This document shows positions 3,234-18,380 of a DNA stretch of 64,000 nt, piece after piece. A model generated the notes under the pieces. The model was given only the letters and a program-made list of their open reading frames with translations, was not told the DNA's origin and searched no databases. A program made the translations under genes and the position numbers. How positions within the stretch are numbered: position 1 is the first letter of the stretch; every line of letters starts with the position of its first letter. This DNA comes from Thermoflexus hugenholtzii JAD2 (GTDB lineage Bacteria > Chloroflexota > Anaerolineae > Thermoflexales > Thermoflexaceae): contig NZ_FYEK01000066.1 in assembly GCF_900187885.1 (NCBI RefSeq), positions 1 through 64,000 of the forward strand, read 5' to 3'.

Positions 3234-3329
3234 CTCATAATCCGTGGATAACGGTGGGCGGGTAGGATGTCGATGGACAACCGGGACTCCTATGGAGCCC
3301 AAACCATGCGCAACCGGAGGTGTGATCCC

Positions 3330-3902
3330 ATGAGCAAGCGATGGCTGTTCGTCCCGCTTTTCCTGCTGGCCCTGCTGGTCGGGGCGCTGGGGTTCGGGAT
3401 CGTCGGGCGGGCGCAGGCGGCCCGCGCCGCCGCCCCCCTGAGCGGATTCGTCGGCCACCCCGGCGGCTGGTTCGGCCGGGGCCTCTGCGGGCAGGCCGGG
3501 CTGGAGGCCGCCGCCAAAGCCCTCAACATGACCCCTGAGGAGCTCTCCACCCAGCTCTGGGGTGGCCGCACCCTGGCCGAGCTCGCGGATAAAGCCGGCG
3601 TGGACCTCCAGAAGGTCCGCGATGCGGTGAACCAGGCGTGCGTGCAGGCCATCCGTGACGCCATCGAGCAGGCCGTCCGGGACGGCCGCCTGACCCGCGA
3701 GCAGGCGGACTGGCTGCTGCAGGGGCTGGATCGCGGCTACTGGGGCCCGGGCGCCGGATGGTGGGGCTTCCGCGGCTTCTGGGGCTTCCGGGGCCGCGGC
3801 GGGTGGTGGTGGGCTCCGAAAGGGCCGGCCACGCCCACTCCCGCGCCGGGCGGCACCGGCTTCTCCCGACCGCGCTTCGGGATCCTGGGCCGCTCCGCCT
3901 GA
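3330..3902 (+). CDS. Secreted helical protein with Gly/Trp/Phe-rich tail (unknown function)
   Basis: A 190-residue protein that I do not recognise. The first 30 residues are a clear export signal: MSKRW, a Leu/Val core and an AQA-type cleavage site. The middle is a helical region (GLEAAAKALNMTPEELSTQLW, GRTLAELADKAGVDLQKV, then IRDAIEQAVRDGRLTREQAD), a pattern common in small exported Gram-positive and Chloroflexota proteins. The C-terminal 60 residues are dominated by Gly, Trp, Phe, Pro and Arg (GWWGFRGFWGFRGRGGWWW). The start is chosen because GGAGGTG precedes this ATG; upstream in-frame ATGs lack one. It is followed by a strong terminator, so it is monocistronic. Confidence 0.75.
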   Translation: MSKRWLFVPLFLLALLVGALGFGIVGRAQAARAAAPLSGFVGHPGGWFGRGLCGQAGLEAAAKALNMTPEELSTQLWGGRTLAELADKAGVDLQKVRDAVNQACVQAIRDAIEQAVRDGRLTREQADWLLQGLDRGYWGPGAGWWGFRGFWGFRGRGGWWWAPKGPATPTPAPGGTGFSRPRFGILGRSA

Positions 3903-3927
3903 GGATCTCGTGCGTCGATCCCACCCC

Positions 3928-3966
3928 GGAGGGGATGCGCCGGCCGCATCCCCTCCACGCTTTTTT
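3928..3966 (+). terminator. Intrinsic terminator of the secreted-protein gene
   Basis: A perfect 12-bp stem (GGAGGGGATGCG at 3928-3939 with its complement at 3945-3956) encloses a 5-nt loop and is followed by six T residues at 3961-3966. This ends the transcript of the preceding gene just ahead of the HtrA gene. Confidence 0.9.
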
Positions 3967-4002
3967 CAGGGACTCCATTGACCAACCGGACAGGAGGGCA
4001 GG

Positions 4003-5169
4003 ATGAGGTTTCCGAAATGGCTTCGATGGGCTGGTATGGGGTTTCTGAGCCTGCTGGTCGCCTGTCAGGGGATGCGATCCGCCGCTCCAGCGCCCGGTCC
4101 CGCCCTTTCGACCTCCATCCCGCCCACCCCGGGGATCGCTGCGCCGGTGCCTGTGGCCCTGGCCGCCGGAGCCGGGGAGGCCGTCGCCGCCCTGGAGCAG
4201 CAGCTGAAGGCGATCTATCAACAGGTGAACCCTTCGGTAGTCCACATCCGCGTTCGAAGCGGCCAGGGCGCCCTCCGGGAGGAAAGCACCGGTTCGGGCT
4301 TCGTCTACGATCGAGATGGACACATCGTCACCAACCATCACGTGGTGGAAGGCGGGGGGACCGTCATCGTCACCTTCGCAGATGGGACGGAGGTCCTTGC
4401 CCGGGTGATCGGCACGGACCCGGACAGCGATCTGGCGGTGCTTCAGGTGGAGGTGCCGTCGGAGCGGCTTCATCCCGTGGCCTTGGGGGATTCGGGGGCT
4501 GTGCACCCGGGGCAGCTGGCCATCGCTATCGGTAACCCCTTCGGGCTGGAGGGGACGATGACCGTGGGGATTGTCAGCGCCGTCGGTCGGGTCATCCGGC
4601 CGGGATCCCGCGTGTTCAGCATCCCGAATATGATCCAGACCGACGCGCCGATCAACCCGGGGAACTCCGGCGGCCCGCTGCTGGACAGCCAGGGCCGGGT
4701 GATCGGCGTGAACACGATGATCTTCTCCCAGACAGGGGTCTCCTCGGGGGTGGGCTTCGCCATCCCGGTGAACACGGTGCGGCGCATCGTCCCGGAGCTG
4801 ATCGCCCGGGGCCGTTATGAGCATCCCTGGCTGGGGATCTCCGGCTATTCGGTGACGCCGCTGGTGGCGAAGGAGCTGGGGCTGCCGGCCGAGCGGGGGG
4901 CCCTTATCCTGGAGGTGGACCCCCGAGGCCCTGCAGCCCGGGCTGGCCTGCGCGGGGGGAGCCGCCCGATCCCCGTCCTCGGGGAATCCATTCCCGCCGG
5001 AGGCGACCTCATCGTCGCCATCGACGGCCGCCCCATCTCCAGCATGGAGGATCTCATCGCCGAACTGGAGGAACATTACCGGCCCGGGGATGAGATCACC
5101 CTCTCCATCCTGCGGGACGGCCAGACGCGCGAGGTTCGGGTCCGCCTTGCCCCGCGGCCTTCCTCATGA
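4003..5169 (+). CDS. HtrA/DegP-like serine protease, lipoprotein, with PDZ domain
   Basis: An extracytoplasmic quality-control protease of 388 residues. The N-terminus has a lipoprotein signal with lipobox LLVAC (Cys21), so it should be membrane-anchored on the outer face. The trypsin-like domain (about 70-270) carries the triad His113 in VTNHHVVE, Asp143 in DSDLAVL and Ser222 in NPGNSGGPLL. A single PDZ domain follows (about 275-385, with GPAARAGL and DLIVAIDGRPI). The ATG has GGAGGGCAGG upstream. Pro-rich linker residues 30-55 separate the anchor from the protease. It stands alone between two terminator-like hairpins. Confidence 0.94.
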   Translation: MRFPKWLRWAGMGFLSLLVACQGMRSAAPAPGPALSTSIPPTPGIAAPVPVALAAGAGEAVAALEQQLKAIYQQVNPSVVHIRVRSGQGALREESTGSGFVYDRDGHIVTNHHVVEGGGTVIVTFADGTEVLARVIGTDPDSDLAVLQVEVPSERLHPVALGDSGAVHPGQLAIAIGNPFGLEGTMTVGIVSAVGRVIRPGSRVFSIPNMIQTDAPINPGNSGGPLLDSQGRVIGVNTMIFSQTGVSSGVGFAIPVNTVRRIVPELIARGRYEHPWLGISGYSVTPLVAKELGLPAERGALILEVDPRGPAARAGLRGGSRPIPVLGESIPAGGDLIVAIDGRPISSMEDLIAELEEHYRPGDEITLSILRDGQTREVRVRLAPRPSS

Positions 5170-5189
5170 CCCTTCCGGAAGACACAGGC

Positions 5190-5214
5190 GGGGAGGGCAT
5201 CATCGGCCCTCCCC
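5190..5214. terminator. GC-rich hairpin between convergent genes
   Basis: A 9-bp stem (GGGGAGGGC at 5190-5198 pairing with 5206-5214) lies between the HtrA stop and the convergent DUF4282 gene. Neither flank has a U-rich tract, so it may be a weak bidirectional terminator or only an mRNA-end stabiliser. Confidence 0.35.
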
Positions 5215-5231
5215 GTCGGCCCGAGGATCGC

Positions 5232-5552
5232 TTACGCCCCGGTTGGGCGCTGGCGCTCCAGCAGCTCCTTGATGTCCGTCAGGGTCTCGCTGATCCGGAA
5301 GGTCACGATGAGCAGCTCCGCGTAGATTCTGGAGAGCAGGATCCCCAGGAGGACCACCAGGGGGCTTAGGCAGAGGGCGCCCAGGATCGCCCCGGCTCCA
5401 TCCCGACGGCCGGCGATCCCCGCTCCGGTGATCCCGCCGAACAGGATGGCGCAGCCCGCCAAGATGCTGATGGCGACACCGATCCAGAACAGCGCCTGGA
5501 TGAGATAGGGCGTGATCATCCGGCGGAAGGTGAGGAAGTCTTCCCAGTTCAT
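5232..5552 (-). CDS. Small membrane protein, DUF4282-like
   Basis: A 106-residue protein with two long hydrophobic segments (about 20-45 and 60-85) and the opening MNWEDFLTFRRMITPYLIQALFW, which matches the DUF4282 pattern as I know it. The C-terminus is a hydrophilic helix (ETLTDIKELLERQ). The ATG is set by GGAGGTCCTCT just upstream, seven codons inside the longest open frame. It is divergent from the next small membrane-protein gene and shares an 79-bp gap with it. Function unknown. Confidence 0.75.
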   Translation of the reverse strand: MNWEDFLTFRRMITPYLIQALFWIGVAISILAGCAILFGGITGAGIAGRRDGAGAILGALCLSPLVVLLGILLSRIYAELLIVTFRISETLTDIKELLERQRPTGA

Positions 5553-5581
5553 AGAGGACCTCCATCGTCTCAAGGATCGTC

Positions 5582-5610
5582 TTGTCCCCCGAACGATTCG
5601 ACATTATACT
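5582..5610 (+). promoter_or_regulatory. Sigma-70-type promoter of the DUF4190-like gene
   Basis: TTGTCC at 5582-5587 and TATACT at 5605-5610 are separated by 17 bp, a good vegetative promoter. Transcription would start around 5616, close to the start codon. A 6-bp hairpin (CCCCTT/AAGGGG, 5612-5626) overlaps the purine-rich ribosome binding site and could limit translation. Confidence 0.6.
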
Positions 5611-5631
5611 GCCCCTTAAAAAGGGGGAACA

Positions 5632-5967
5632 ATGGAAGCGCCTGCGATTCCTCCTTCTCCGGCGGCATCGAAAACCAGTGGGAAGGCGATCGCTAGCCTG
5701 ATCCTGAGCCTCCTTGGCCTGGTGGGCGTGCTCCCCCTCATCGGTTCCATCCTCGGGATCATCTTCGGCAACCAAGCGAAGGGGGAGATCGCCCGCAGCG
5801 GCGGGGACCTCACCGGCGAGGGGCTGGCCGAGGCCGGCGTGATCATCGGGTGGGTGGGGCTGGCCCTGAGCGTGATCGGGACGATCTGTGCCCTGCTGAT
5901 CCTGGGCAGCACCATCGGGCTGGGGTTCTGCTCTGCCCTTATAGGTGGGATCCTCACTTCCCGTTAA
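5632..5967 (+). CDS. Small membrane protein, DUF4190-like
   Basis: A 111-residue protein with a Pro/Ser/Ala-rich cytoplasmic N-terminus (about 1-17) and two membrane spans (about 19-45 and 70-105). The segment between them, GNQAKGEIARSGG followed by GEGLAEAGVIIGWVGLAL, is the hallmark of DUF4190 proteins. Family members are common in Actinobacteria and Chloroflexota, and their role is not known. AAGGGGGAACA precedes the ATG. It is transcribed divergently from the DUF4282-like gene and converges with the MFS gene 14 bp away. Confidence 0.8.
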   Translation: MEAPAIPPSPAASKTSGKAIASLILSLLGLVGVLPLIGSILGIIFGNQAKGEIARSGGDLTGEGLAEAGVIIGWVGLALSVIGTICALLILGSTIGLGFCSALIGGILTSR

Positions 5968-5981
5968 GATCCGAACCCTCT

Positions 5982-7297
5982 TTAAGGAAGCGATCGGATC
6001 TGCGGGTAGCGGCGGTGCGCCCAGAGCATGTAGCCCAGGCTGGCCGCGGCCCCCAGGGCCACGGCCGCCGGGGCGCCCAGGGCGCTGGCCATCAGGCCCG
6101 CCTGTAACCCGCCCAGCCGCATCATCATCTGGAAAGCCAGGGTATACACCCCCATCACCCGTCCCCGCACCGCGTCCTCCACGTTCACCTGGATCAGGGT
6201 GTTGGCCAGGGCGTTCTGCCAGACGAAGGCCATCCCGCTCAGGATCAGGAACGCCAGCGCCAGGGGGAAAGAACGGGAAAGGGAAAACCCCAGCAGCGCC
6301 AGCGGGAAGCCCAGGTTCCCCCAGGTGAGCATCCGCCCCCGGCGTCCCGTATCCCCATAGGCGGCGGCGAGCAGCGCCCCGGCCACCGCGCCGATCCCTA
6401 CCGCGCCCATCATCAGGCCGTAGGCCACCGCCTCCGGCTGCGCGCACGACAGAAGCACCTCGCCCCACCGGCTCTCGGCAACCCATCCGCAGAGGTGCCC
6501 GACCACCGGTGCCGCGCTGCCCCAGAGCGAGGTACGGGCGAATACGGGGAGGAGAACCGTGTAGGGCATGGAGAGGAAGGCAGATACTCCCACCATGCTC
6601 ACCAAGCCCCACAACGTGGCATCCGCTCGGATGCGAGCCAGCCCGGCCAGGGGATCCGAAGCGGAGCCCGCGCGGACGCGCCGGGCCGTTGAGCCGGGCA
6701 ATCGCATGGCCAGCAGGCCGGCGATCACCGCAAGGAACGAAACGCCGTTGAGGAAGAAGGCCATGGCCTCCCCCAGCGTGGCCACCACCAGACCGGCCAG
6801 GGAAGGGCCGATGATCCGCGCGAAGTTGAACAGGGAGGAGTTCAGGGCGATCGCGTTGCCCAGGTCCTCTTCCCCCACCATCTCCACCACGAAGGCCTGG
6901 CGGGCGGGCACGTCCAGCATCTGAAAGGCCGCCAGCAGCATGGCCATCCCCCACACGTGCCAGACCTGGACATAACCGCTCCAGGTGAGCCAGGCCAGCA
7001 GGAAGGCCTGGAACATCATCAGCGACTGGGTGATCAGGATGACCCAGCGCCGTGGGAAGCGATCGGCCAGGCTGCCGCCGAACAGCGCCAGGGGGAAGAG
7101 GGGCAGGATCGAAAGGCCGTTCATGATGCCCAGCCCGGCCGGCGACCCGGTGAGCCGGTAGACCAGCCAGTTCTGGGCGATGGTTTGCATCCAGGTCCCG
7201 CTGAGGGAGATCAGCTGGCCGATGAAATACAGCCGGTAGTTCCAGTGGCGGAGCGCCCGGAAAGGATGCCGGGCCCGACGGGTCGACATCGCCGGCC

Positions 7298-7301
<4 letters not shown>
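5982..7301 (-). CDS. MFS transporter, EntS/MFS_3-type exporter
   Basis: A 439-residue integral membrane protein with about 12 predicted spans. The opening FRALRHWNYRLYFIGQLISL and the loop motif GGSLADRFPRRWVI (about residue 70) are typical of the MFS_3 group, which includes enterobactin exporter EntS and many uncharacterised drug/metabolite exporters. No substrate can be inferred. Its start overlaps the galK stop in an ATGA arrangement, so the two are probably translated together. An alternative ATG lies four codons downstream. Confidence 0.85.
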
Positions 7302-8470
<1,169 letters not shown>

Positions 8471-11099: not shown

Positions 11100-11807
11100 T
11101 CAGCCATTGCCGTGCGCTTCCCCCTCGCTGTGAGCCAGCTCCCGCAGCGCGTCCAAATCCCGGATCCGGATATATCCTCCCCGCTCCGTGCGGATCCACC
11201 CCGCCCGGGTCCAGCGGCTCAGGATCCGGATGGCCGTCTCCAGGGTAGTGCCCGCCATGCGGGCGATATCCTCCCGGGAGAGGGGGATGGTGATCCGAAG
11301 GCCTTCCGCTTCGGGTTGGCCCGCGCGTTCCGCCAGGGTCAGCACCACGTAGGCGATGCGGTTCTCCACCCGCTCCAGGATCAGCGCCCGGATGGACATG
11401 GCCCGCTCCAGGCGCTGACCCAGCATCTGAAGCAACCGGACGGCCACGCGGGGATAGCGCTCCAGGAGCTCCAGATAGGCGGCGCGGGGGATCCGAAGGA
11501 CAGTGACAGGAGTGGCAGCCTGGGCCGTGGCCGGGTTACGACTCAACAGAAGGGTCGCCCCGCCAAATACCTCCCCCGGGCCCAGGAGCTCCAGGATGAC
11601 TTCTTTGCCCGGGGAGGCCTGACGCAACATCCGAACCCGTCCCTCCGCCACGATCCAAACTGCGTCGGCCTCATCACCCTGATGGAAAATATACCGCTCC
11701 GCCGGGAAGGAGAGCACCTCCGTCCAGTGGCCGATCTCGTGATAGGCGTCTACGTCCAGGCCCGCGAACAGAGAGACCCTCTGCAGGATCTCGATCAGGG
11801 AACCCAT
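11100..11807 (-). CDS. Crp/Fnr-family transcription regulator
   Basis: A 235-residue regulator with an N-terminal cyclic-nucleotide-binding fold (about 10-125; FHQGDEADAVWIVAEGRVRM and LLGPGEVFGGATLL) and a C-terminal winged helix (about 155-225; LSREDIARMAGTTLETAIRIL is the recognition region). There is no cluster of Cys for an Fe-S centre, so an Fnr-type oxygen sensor is unlikely; the effector is unknown. The ATG at 11807 is preferred over one seven codons upstream because of the GGGGGA spacing. It is divergent from hisG and convergent with tilS. Its targets are unknown, but a Crp-like activator would suit the glnA-type promoters in this window. Confidence 0.88.
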   Translation of the reverse strand: MGSLIEILQRVSLFAGLDVDAYHEIGHWTEVLSFPAERYIFHQGDEADAVWIVAEGRVRMLRQASPGKEVILELLGPGEVFGGATLLLSRNPATAQAATPVTVLRIPRAAYLELLERYPRVAVRLLQMLGQRLERAMSIRALILERVENRIAYVVLTLAERAGQPEAEGLRITIPLSREDIARMAGTTLETAIRILSRWTRAGWIRTERGGYIRIRDLDALRELAHSEGEAHGNG

Positions 11808-11963
11808 CCATCGATCCCCCGGGGCCAATCATCCGACTTCCCCAGTATAACGGGAGGCGGAGGAACACGAAAACGCCGACATCTGACCACCGGCAGGGAC
11901 CATCCAGGGGGCTGCCCCTGCGATAAAATGGGGGAAAATCAGTGGTCTGCAAGGAGGCACGCG
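11808..11963. promoter_or_regulatory. Divergent crp-like / hisG promoter region
   Basis: On the minus strand TATACT (complement of 11844-11849) is a likely -10 for the regulator. On the plus strand TAAAAT at 11924-11929 is a candidate -10 for hisG. A short perfect inverted repeat (CAGGGG-GCTG-CCCCTG, 11905-11920) sits at the -35 position of the hisG promoter and could be an operator. No leader peptide rich in His codons is seen. Confidence 0.4.
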
Positions 11964-14843: not shown

Positions 14844-14987
14844 ATGGAGAAGGAACAGATCCCGCTGGGACAGATGATCTTCGATGAGCTGTTCCTCCTT
14901 TTCCTTCTCTCCCTCGTCATCAGCCTGATCCTTTACAACATCTGGGGTCTGCTGGATCTGCTGCGAACTCCTCTCCTGGTCCCCTGA
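14844..14987 (+). CDS. Small single-span subunit of the heme-copper enzyme cluster
   Basis: A 47-codon gene with an excellent GGAGGAGGTGGGCG before its ATG. The product has a charged N-terminus (MEKEQIPLGQ), one hydrophobic span of about 22 residues (LFLLFLLSLVISLILYNIW) and a short tail ending in LLVP. Its place directly upstream of the subunit II gene (16-bp gap) matches the tiny IIa subunit of ba3-type oxidases, which is a single helix filling a missing span of subunit II. Sequence similarity cannot be judged at this length. The position supports the assignment and the exact role is inferred. Confidence 0.75.
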   Translation: MEKEQIPLGQMIFDELFLLFLLSLVISLILYNIWGLLDLLRTPLLVP

Positions 14988-15536: not shown

Positions 15537-17249
15537 ATGGCGGCTCCAGCCATTCCGCTTGGTGAAGAGAAGGCGATCTTCCGCGTTTGCCCGGTGACCC
15601 GGCTGCGGGTGGATCTGGCGGCGGAGCGGATGATCATCGCCAACGCCACCGCGGCGGTGATCTTCTTGCTCGTCGGCGGGGTCATGGGGCTGCTGCTGGC
15701 CCTGACCCGCTGGGAAGCCGTCCATCTGCTGCCGGCCACCTGGTATTATCGTTTGGTGACGGGCCACGGCTTCAACATGCTGGTGGCCTGGATCGTCTTC
15801 TTTGAGGTGGCCGGGCTCTATTTCGGGAGCACGGTGCTCTTGAACGCCCGGCTGGCAAGCCCGTGGGCGGCCCGCCTCGCCTTCGCCCTGATGCTCCTGG
15901 GGGCCCTGCTGGTGAACGGGATCGTCCTCGCCGGGCGCGCGGATGTGATGTTCACGGCCTATGTGCCCTTGAAGGCCCATCCCCTCTTCTATCTGGGGGT
16001 CATCCTCTTCGCCGTGGGCGCGTTGATCGCGGTGGCGCTCTTCTTCGTCAACCTTCTCATCGCCCGCCTGGAGGGTCGCTATACGGGCTCCGTGCCCCTG
16101 GTGGTCTTCGGGCTGGCGACGGCCGCCATCATCGCCACCTACACCCTGCTCTCCGGGGCCATCGCTTTCATCCCTGCCTTCTTCTGGTCCCTGGGGTGGC
16201 TGCGCACCTATGATCCGGGCTTCTATCGCAACCTCTTCTGGGGCTTCGGGCACCCGGCCCAGCAGATCAACCTGGCCGCCATGGTAGCGGTGTGGTATGC
16301 GCTGGCCGCGATCACCGTTGGCGCGACGCCGATCAACGAGAAACTCTGCCGGCTGGCTTTTGTTCTCTATATCCTGTTCATCAACCTGGGCGCCGCTCAC
16401 CACCTCCTCGTGGACCCCGGCCTGAGCTTCGCGTGGAAAATGTTCAACACGTCCTATGCGATGTATCTGGCCGTCCTGGGGAGCCTGATCCACGCCTTCT
16501 CGATCCCGGCGGCCGTGGAAGTGGCATTGCGACGCCAGGGGTATCGCCGGGGGCTCTTCGAGTGGCTGCGCCGGGCCCCATGGCAGGAGCCGGGGTTCGC
16601 CGCCCTGGTGGTCTCCATGGTCCTCTTCGGCTGGTTGGGAGGGGTGAGCGGGGTGATCATCGGCACGGAGCAGCTCAACATGCAGTTCCATAACACCCTG
16701 GCGGTGCCCGGGCATTTCCACGCCACGGTGGTCGGGGGCACCACCCTGGCCTTCATGGGGCTGACCTATTACCTCATCCCCCTCATCTTCCGGAGGGAGC
16801 TTCGGCTGAAGCGACTGGCCTCGTATCAGCCTTACGTGTTTGGTTTCGGGATGTTGCTGCTGATCTTGGGCTTCCTGCTCAGCGGCACCCTGGGGGTTCC
16901 TCGCCGGGACTGGGCCGTCTTCAAAACCCCCGCTGCTTTCTCTACGCTGATTCCTGAATCCGCCCAGTTCACCCTCGCCATCGCCGGCCTCGGCGGCGTG
17001 ATCGCCTCGATCGGCGGCGCCATGTTCCTCCTCGTCGTCCTGAGCTCCGTGCTCACCGGGGCCGTTCAGGAAGCCCGCTCCCTCCGCCTGGTGGTCGCGA
17101 GCCCGGCGGATCCGCCCGAAGCGGCGGAAACTGCCCATGAGGAGCCCCGGGGGACCTTCGTGATCGCGCTGGCCTTCCTGGCCTTCTTCATCCTGGTTTA
17201 CTTCCGAAACTGGTGGCTACTGGGGCTCCGGAGCTGGCTAGTTCATTGA
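15537..17249 (+). CDS. B-family heme-copper subunit I lacking the cross-linked Tyr (oxidase or NO reductase)
   Basis: The 570-residue catalytic subunit, with about 13 spans. All heme and copper histidines of ba3 oxidases are visible: His77 (TGHGFNM, low-spin heme), His239 (WGFGHPAQQ, CuB), His288-His289 (GAAHHLLVDPG, CuB), His393 and His395 (VPGHFHATV, high- and low-spin hemes). However, the fourth residue after His239 is Gln243, whereas proton-pumping oxidases have the Tyr that is covalently linked to this His (HPxVY). Loss of that Tyr is characteristic of NO reductases in this superfamily, so NO reduction is as likely as O2 reduction. The ATG has AAAGGAGGCCGGC upstream. Confidence 0.85.
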   Translation: MAAPAIPLGEEKAIFRVCPVTRLRVDLAAERMIIANATAAVIFLLVGGVMGLLLALTRWEAVHLLPATWYYRLVTGHGFNMLVAWIVFFEVAGLYFGSTVLLNARLASPWAARLAFALMLLGALLVNGIVLAGRADVMFTAYVPLKAHPLFYLGVILFAVGALIAVALFFVNLLIARLEGRYTGSVPLVVFGLATAAIIATYTLLSGAIAFIPAFFWSLGWLRTYDPGFYRNLFWGFGHPAQQINLAAMVAVWYALAAITVGATPINEKLCRLAFVLYILFINLGAAHHLLVDPGLSFAWKMFNTSYAMYLAVLGSLIHAFSIPAAVEVALRRQGYRRGLFEWLRRAPWQEPGFAALVVSMVLFGWLGGVSGVIIGTEQLNMQFHNTLAVPGHFHATVVGGTTLAFMGLTYYLIPLIFRRELRLKRLASYQPYVFGFGMLLLILGFLLSGTLGVPRRDWAVFKTPAAFSTLIPESAQFTLAIAGLGGVIASIGGAMFLLVVLSSVLTGAVQEARSLRLVVASPADPPEAAETAHEEPRGTFVIALAFLAFFILVYFRNWWLLGLRSWLVH

Positions 17250-17465: not shown

Positions 17466-18380
17466 ATGGACGATCGCGCGCTGTTTTCGCGAGCCTGGCG
17501 AATCGTGAGCGGCCACAGATCCTTGTGGCTGTTCGGGTTCATCGCCGGTTTCGGACCTCCCATGGCCCTCTTCCAGTTCAGCGGGAACGCCTTCATCGCT
17601 TTCCCTCGATCTCCTGAAGAGCTCCGGGGGCTCCTTCTCCACCCCTCCTTTCCATGGGTGTGGGCAGGGATTTCCCTTCTGGCCCTTTTCACTTTGGTTA
17701 TGTGGCTCCTCATCAACGCATCCGGGCACGCCGCGCTGATTGTTCTGGTGAACCGCGCAGAGGAGGGCGCGGCGCCCACGCTTTCCGCAGGCTGGGAGGC
17801 CATCCGGCGCTACGGCTGGCGGATCTTCCTGATCCACGGGCTGCTCCGGCTGCCCATCTTTTTACTCGCGGGAGCCTCCGTGCTCCCGCTGATCGTTCCG
17901 ATCGGGCAAGCGCTGGTCGAGGGACGATCGACCATCCCGGGCCCCCAGATCGATCTGGGCCTGTTTTGCTGCTGTCTGGGGGCAACGATCTGGATCCCTG
18001 CCTTGATCCTCTTCAGCTGGATCGAAGCCCTTGCGGATCGGGCATGCATCCTGAACCACCGTTCGATCCGTGCGAGCATCGCTTATGGTTGGAACGCTCT
18101 CCAGCGGCATTCCGGCCAGGTGATCCCCTTCGCCCTGATGCTTTTCGGGATCGGGCTGGGAGTTATGGCACCGCTTTACATCCTTCAAGGAATAACCGGC
18201 TATCAGGCAGGCCAAGCGCCGGATCTGGTTTCCGCTCCCGGTGGGCGCAGGTTACCTCTGATGGGTCTATATATTGCGGAACTGGCGATCAACACGGGGA
18301 CCGCCATGTTCTTCTCGTCATGCTGGACCCTGTTCTACCGTCAGCTCTTCATGGCCGCATCAGATCATGCGAGCCAATGA
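17466..18380 (+). CDS. Polytopic membrane protein of unknown function
   Basis: A 304-residue protein with about six hydrophobic spans (near 17-38, 63-90, 115-145, 165-190, 218-240 and 270-292). Hydrophilic stretches such as NRAEEGAAPTLSAGWEAIRRYGWR and LADRACILNHRSIRASIAYGWNALQR resemble the repeated AxxxGW-type helices of DUF975/DUF7544-like membrane proteins, but I cannot name the family. GGAGAAGGGCC precedes the ATG. It is flanked by strong terminators on both sides, so it is a single-gene unit. TAGAAT at 17385-17390 is a possible -10 box. Confidence 0.75.
   Translation: MDDRALFSRAWRIVSGHRSLWLFGFIAGFGPPMALFQFSGNAFIAFPRSPEELRGLLLHPSFPWVWAGISLLALFTLVMWLLINASGHAALIVLVNRAEEGAAPTLSAGWEAIRRYGWRIFLIHGLLRLPIFLLAGASVLPLIVPIGQALVEGRSTIPGPQIDLGLFCCCLGATIWIPALILFSWIEALADRACILNHRSIRASIAYGWNALQRHSGQVIPFALMLFGIGLGVMAPLYILQGITGYQAGQAPDLVSAPGGRRLPLMGLYIAELAINTGTAMFFSSCWTLFYRQLFMAASDHASQ

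Follow-up and report, generated by a model that had tools for sequence, protein, structure and literature searches.

A heme-copper subunit I of Thermoflexus hugenholtzii JAD2 with Gln in place of the active-site Tyr very probably belongs to an eNOR-type NO reductase

Introduction

The stretch of 64,000 nucleotides from Thermoflexus hugenholtzii JAD2 analysed here (hereafter, the window) encodes a heme-copper subunit I from which the cross-linked helix VI Tyr of B-family (ba3) O2 reductases is absent, with Gln243 found instead. An earlier note on this sequence suggested that the enzyme might be an NO reductase supplied with electrons by CuA, or else a new active-site variant. The locus raises the question of whether its product is an NO reductase, an O2 reductase that dispenses with the usual Tyr, or something else. 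A Gln variant of this kind, the eNOR, is said to have been described by Hemp and Gennis in 2008, and the eNOR characterised by Murali et al. in 2024 is reportedly the purified Rhodothermus marinus enzyme, which reduces NO.

In a 2022 paper, eNOR subunit I was defined by a conserved Gln that takes the place of the cross-linking Tyr of oxygen reductases (PMC8756737). The same paper lists the residue at this site as Q in eNOR, E in cNOR and qNOR, N in sNOR and CuANOR, and D in gNOR, and describes a cupredoxin subunit II immediately upstream of subunit I in the eNORs of Chloroflexi (PMC8756737). In Ardenticatena maritima, an eNOR is encoded in an operon with nirK (PMC4653789). A passage of PMC11388526, citing Murali et al. 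2024, presents the eNOR as biochemically characterised and related to B-family oxidases.

Results

Features of the locus are collected in Table 1. Subunit I matched Pfam COX1 with an E value of 1.7e-65 and, among PDB chains, subunit I of the Thermus and Aquifex ba3 enzymes (E about 1e-42). In an alignment with these chains, the six positions of metal ligands are filled by H77, H239, H288, H289, H393 and H395, just as the earlier note had claimed for the heme and CuB histidines of B-family oxidases. The replacement of the Tyr was likewise read correctly there, down to its number: Q243 aligns to Tyr237 of T. thermophilus ba3, HPAQQ standing where oxidases have HPIVY or HPVVY. In a wider frame, GHPAQQINL lies opposite the oxidase motif GHPxVYFWL (HPIVYFWL in T. 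thermophilus ba3). A structure model of subunit I computed from 38 sequences (pLDDT 84.8, pTM 0.88) can be superposed on subunit I of aa3 and ba3 enzymes over about 460-486 residues, with VIA-align Z scores of 36-37 and an rmsd of 2.1-2.5.

Table 1. Positions in the window of the probable eNOR genes, the active-site codons and two neighbouring genes
Feature	Position	Strand	Remark
CRP/FNR-family regulator	11100-11828	-	cNMP_binding + HTH_Crp_2; about 3 kb upstream
47-aa single-helix ORF MEKEQIPLGQMIFDELFLLFLLSLVISLILYNIWGLLDLLRTPLLVP, probably IIa-like	14844..14987	+	upstream of subunit II
eNOR subunit II, 172 aa	15004..15522	+	one N-terminal transmembrane helix + CuA cupredoxin domain
eNOR subunit I (catalytic, heme-copper), 570 aa	15537..17249	+	open frame; Pfam COX1; Gln clade
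H239-P-A-Q242-Q243 codons	16251..16265	+	CuB ligand His + Gln at cross-linked Tyr position
304-aa hydrophobic multi-helix protein	17466-18380	+	directly downstream of subunit I

The Gln codon might have been a sequencing or assembly error, or a mark of a pseudogene. Both are ruled out, since QQ was found at positions 242-243 in every Gln-clade protein read, from independent genomes of several phyla, and since other genomes of the genus carry copies of the gene that are 97% and 91% identical. Subunit I from the window shares 90-91% identity with its counterparts in Ca. Thermoflexus japonica and Ca. Thermoflexus tengchongensis.

Besides Gln243, the Gln clade is invariant at Gln242 (Val in ba3), Asn245 (Trp), His319 (Thr312), Asn304 and Tyr307, and nearly so at Glu268 (Asp262 in ba3); the alignment also shows one additional residue in the helix that follows. 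Tyr254 and Ser316 (Tyr248 and Ser309 of ba3) are retained. Judged from sequence alone, the positions of the B-family K-type channel are partly kept (Tyr254, Ser316, Ser322) and partly substituted (Asn267/Glu268, His319). We also sought a Tyr that might reach the active site from another helix, an outcome that the earlier note had held against its own proposal. This look at the sequence covered the cbb3-style position only, which we take to lie on helix VII, six residues ahead of the HH pair. Ile282 is found there, invariant in our alignment A2 of the Gln clade, and a Tyr of the cbb3 (C-family) type was rejected on these grounds. Both Tyr307 and Tyr310 are invariant in A2, while several members of the clade have His at the position of Tyr310.

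Directly upstream of subunit I, subunit II has every ligand of the CuA site (H118, C153-N-E155-F-C157-YIG-H161-HV-M164), in agreement with the earlier statement that CuA is retained; in NCBIfam it matches CoxB and the CuA domain of NosZ weakly. Homologues of the small ORF that precedes it share the motif F/L-D-x-[IV]-[FY]-L ... W-[GA] and, in the majority of eNOR loci examined, likewise come just before subunit II. On three annotated plasmids, those of Thermomicrobium roseum, Defluviimonas and T. thermophilus, the ORF in this place is named only as a hypothetical protein. No match to the 47-aa product was obtained in Pfam or NCBIfam. The ba3 oxidase of T. thermophilus has a one-helix subunit IIa of 34 aa, and the place and size of the small ORF suggest a similar role, so that its product is probably a third, IIa-like subunit of the complex. 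For the 304-aa protein encoded on the other side of subunit I, Pfam, NCBIfam and the 83 related loci gave no match.

A tree of 51 rows was composed of 32 Gln proteins and 19 Tyr proteins, and a single branch with support of 100/100 parts all of the former from all of the latter. The solved ba3 enzymes of T. thermophilus and Aquifex are on the Tyr side. Subunit I from the window falls inside the Gln side with members from Thermomicrobium, Thermus and Nitrospinota. This side includes the plasmid copies of Thermomicrobium roseum, T. thermophilus and Defluviimonas, and members from Nitrospinota, Spirochaetota and Myxococcota. Grouping with O2-reducing ba3 oxidases, which the earlier note had named as evidence that would speak against it, was looked for in this tree and does not occur. 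The tree was midpoint-rooted for drawing and, as such, does not give the direction of the change between Gln and Tyr; its rows are without the R. marinus and Natronomonas eNORs and without sNOR, gNOR, bNOR and nNOR references. Three haloarchaeal plasmid matches named b(o/a)3 were read as possible eNORs and set aside, as all of them have Tyr.

Within the Gln clade, Lys replaces His at a low-spin heme ligand (GHFK against GHFH) in the T. thermophilus plasmid protein (L129:7983-9668) and in L108 and L110, of the Bacterium HR19 type. These three cluster together at 95/90, and their motif suggests His/Lys heme ligation; the window protein retains His395.

Close homologues of subunit I occur in 19 of 150 genomes drawn from the class; a scan of species genomes yielded 80 loci with names. 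NirK was found in 10 of the 19 eNOR genomes and in 12 of the 131 others (Fisher p = 2.4e-5, uncorrected for relatedness), and is missing above the cut-off from the remaining 9/19. Within the genus, a NirK above the cut-off is confined to the genomes that carry eNOR: all four of these have it, as against none of the other three. An enrichment of NosZ was considered as eNOR-specific evidence too, and is weakened by the fact that genomes with Tyr-bearing B-family oxidases show it as well.

The genome of T. hugenholtzii itself encodes NirK, at 314.9 bits against a curated cut-off of 296.3, and NosZ, at 881 bits against a cut-off of 625; a search for NirS there gave nothing above the cut-off. The eNOR genes are located away from nirK and nosZ, which sit on other contigs; their neighbours in the window are histidine and purine genes, with no denitrification genes among them. 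The CRP/FNR-family gene has FixK as its best NCBIfam match, under the cut-off of that model. Other CRP/FNR genes are close to eNOR in 8/83 loci, and the product might be a regulator responsive to NO or O2.

In a probable Ardenticatena maritima genome (G033:C5, locus L145, reverse complement of about 3243-7580), whose subunit I is 68% identical to the window protein, NirK clusters with eNOR: it is followed by the small one-helix ORF, the genes for subunits II and I, and finally an ORF of 307 aa. This last one possibly encodes heme o synthase, which other loci have there. NirS lies at most 6 kb from eNOR in 8 of the 83 related loci, and a same-strand cytochrome b gene is present in 48 of them. 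On the Defluviimonas plasmid (L128:9742-13951), the eNOR genes have the look of a mobile respiratory module: after them come genes for heme o synthase and SCO, and then those for a cytochrome b protein and a member of the hemerythrin family.

T. hugenholtzii has four heme-copper subunit I genes. Two encode Tyr-bearing oxidases, one of the A-family with HPEVY and one of the B-family with HPLVYFW. We would also like to comment on a second Tyr-less subunit I outside the window (G000:C27:262349-263893, minus strand; loci L004 and L139). It reads FAHNLMEAMG, with Glu at the Tyr position (H+4), and retains the HH pair. Its helix X motif is VTAHTM, in which the second His, the low-spin heme ligand, seems to be replaced, perhaps by Met. 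The CuA-type subunit II adjoining this gene carries CLEYCGVGHGRM. A search of 41 relatives turned up a close copy in just one other genome of the genus, and stops interrupt that copy.

Discussion

We conclude, with a probability of roughly 0.92, that the locus encodes an eNOR, a heme-copper NO reductase built from two subunits on the plan of B-family oxidases, to which a small third one probably belongs. Gln243 with all metal ligands kept, together with a cupredoxin subunit II immediately upstream, corresponds to the published definition of the family. In this light, the suggestion that NO may be reduced with electrons from CuA gains support from both this signature and the genome context, while the idea of a new active-site variant is not supported, as Gln at this site beside a subunit II with CuA is what the literature gives as the mark of eNOR. 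Chloroflexota hosts and co-occurrence with Nir are also shared with described eNORs. The window genes differ from them in not being located beside nir genes; we found no other difference of note.

T. thermophilus ba3 shares the fold, the six histidines and a CuA subunit II with the window enzyme at 27% identity, and differs from it in having HPIVYFW against HPAQQIN, Thr312 against His319 and Ser261/Asp262 against Asn267/Glu268. Bacillus bNOR (formerly CuANOR) likewise reduces NO, derives from the B-family and has a CuA subunit, but Asn is listed at its Tyr site (PMC8756737, Table A4). With cNOR and qNOR, the proposed enzyme would share the reaction from NO to N2O, whereas these have Glu at the Tyr site, are related to the C-family and rely on a cytochrome c subunit or on quinol instead of CuA (PMC8756737, PMC11388526).

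In such an enzyme, electrons from a soluble donor, cytochrome c or a cupredoxin, would enter at the CuA site of subunit II, and would pass to the low-spin heme (H77/H395) and then to a binuclear site made of the high-spin heme (H393) and CuB (H239, H288, H289), where 2 NO + 2 e- + 2 H+ would give N2O + H2O. In oxidases, the cross-linked His-Tyr provides an electron and a proton for O2 splitting. Since NO reduction has no need of this extra electron, the Tyr would be dispensable, and the Gln243 in its place may help to hold NO or to carry protons. In the putative Thermoflexus pathway, eNOR would stand between NirK, which makes NO, and NosZ, which consumes N2O. The sequence, the ligands, the clade and the gene content are direct observations; we infer the activity of this copy, its electron donor and its proton route, while NO reduction by eNORs is taken from the literature. 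The enzyme might also conserve energy. A fuller version, in which the enzyme conserves energy as a three-subunit complex with the 47-aa protein as an integral part, and in which Gln242, Gln243, Asn245 and His319 form a distinct site for binding NO and delivering protons, supplied through a proton channel like that of the B-family, is less probable than its opposite.

Might the enzyme be mainly a ba3-like O2 reductase that dispenses with the His-Tyr cofactor or takes a Tyr from a different helix? Its overall fold equals that of ba3 and aa3 subunit I, CuA is kept, and candidate tyrosines exist in the conserved Tyr254 and in Tyr307 and Tyr310. However, Tyr310 gives way to His in several members, the cbb3-type position is occupied by Ile282, and the clade stands apart from all Tyr oxidases at 100/100. 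A genomic link to NirK and NirS, a host already equipped with two ordinary Tyr oxidases, and the reduction of NO by one member of the eNOR family (as cited in a passage of PMC11388526) make this explanation very improbable. Even less credit is due to a distinct Gln-bearing NOR family other than eNOR: a tree without the named reference eNORs of R. marinus or Natronomonas leaves some room for it, but the residue, the subunit make-up, the gene order and the host groups, Thermus and the probable A. maritima genome with its NirK cluster included, are those of published eNORs.

A different matter is what an eNOR would be used for. An enzyme serving mainly NO detoxification rather than respiration is a variant of the eNOR reading and compatible with it. 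The separation of the eNOR genes from nirK and nosZ, which lie on other contigs, would fit such a role, as would the T. thermophilus plasmid copy, which neighbours an Rrf2 regulator and a DUF542 protein of a type associated with repair of NO damage. Nevertheless, the frequent same-strand cytochrome b gene (48/83 loci) suggests a respiratory chain, CuA points to the level of cytochrome c, and both NirK and NosZ are present in the genome, so that we regard a mainly detoxifying function as rather unlikely.

Conclusions

Overall, the window enzyme is very probably an ordinary member of the recently established eNOR family. In the literature that could be searched, we found no description of the conserved small protein, a probable subunit, or of the Lys that replaces a heme-ligand His in some relatives. 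As general annotation names such genes cytochrome c oxidase, hosts that produce N2O are missed. The eNOR reading of this locus adds to them a thermophilic Chloroflexota lineage that apparently carries nitrite, NO and N2O reduction.
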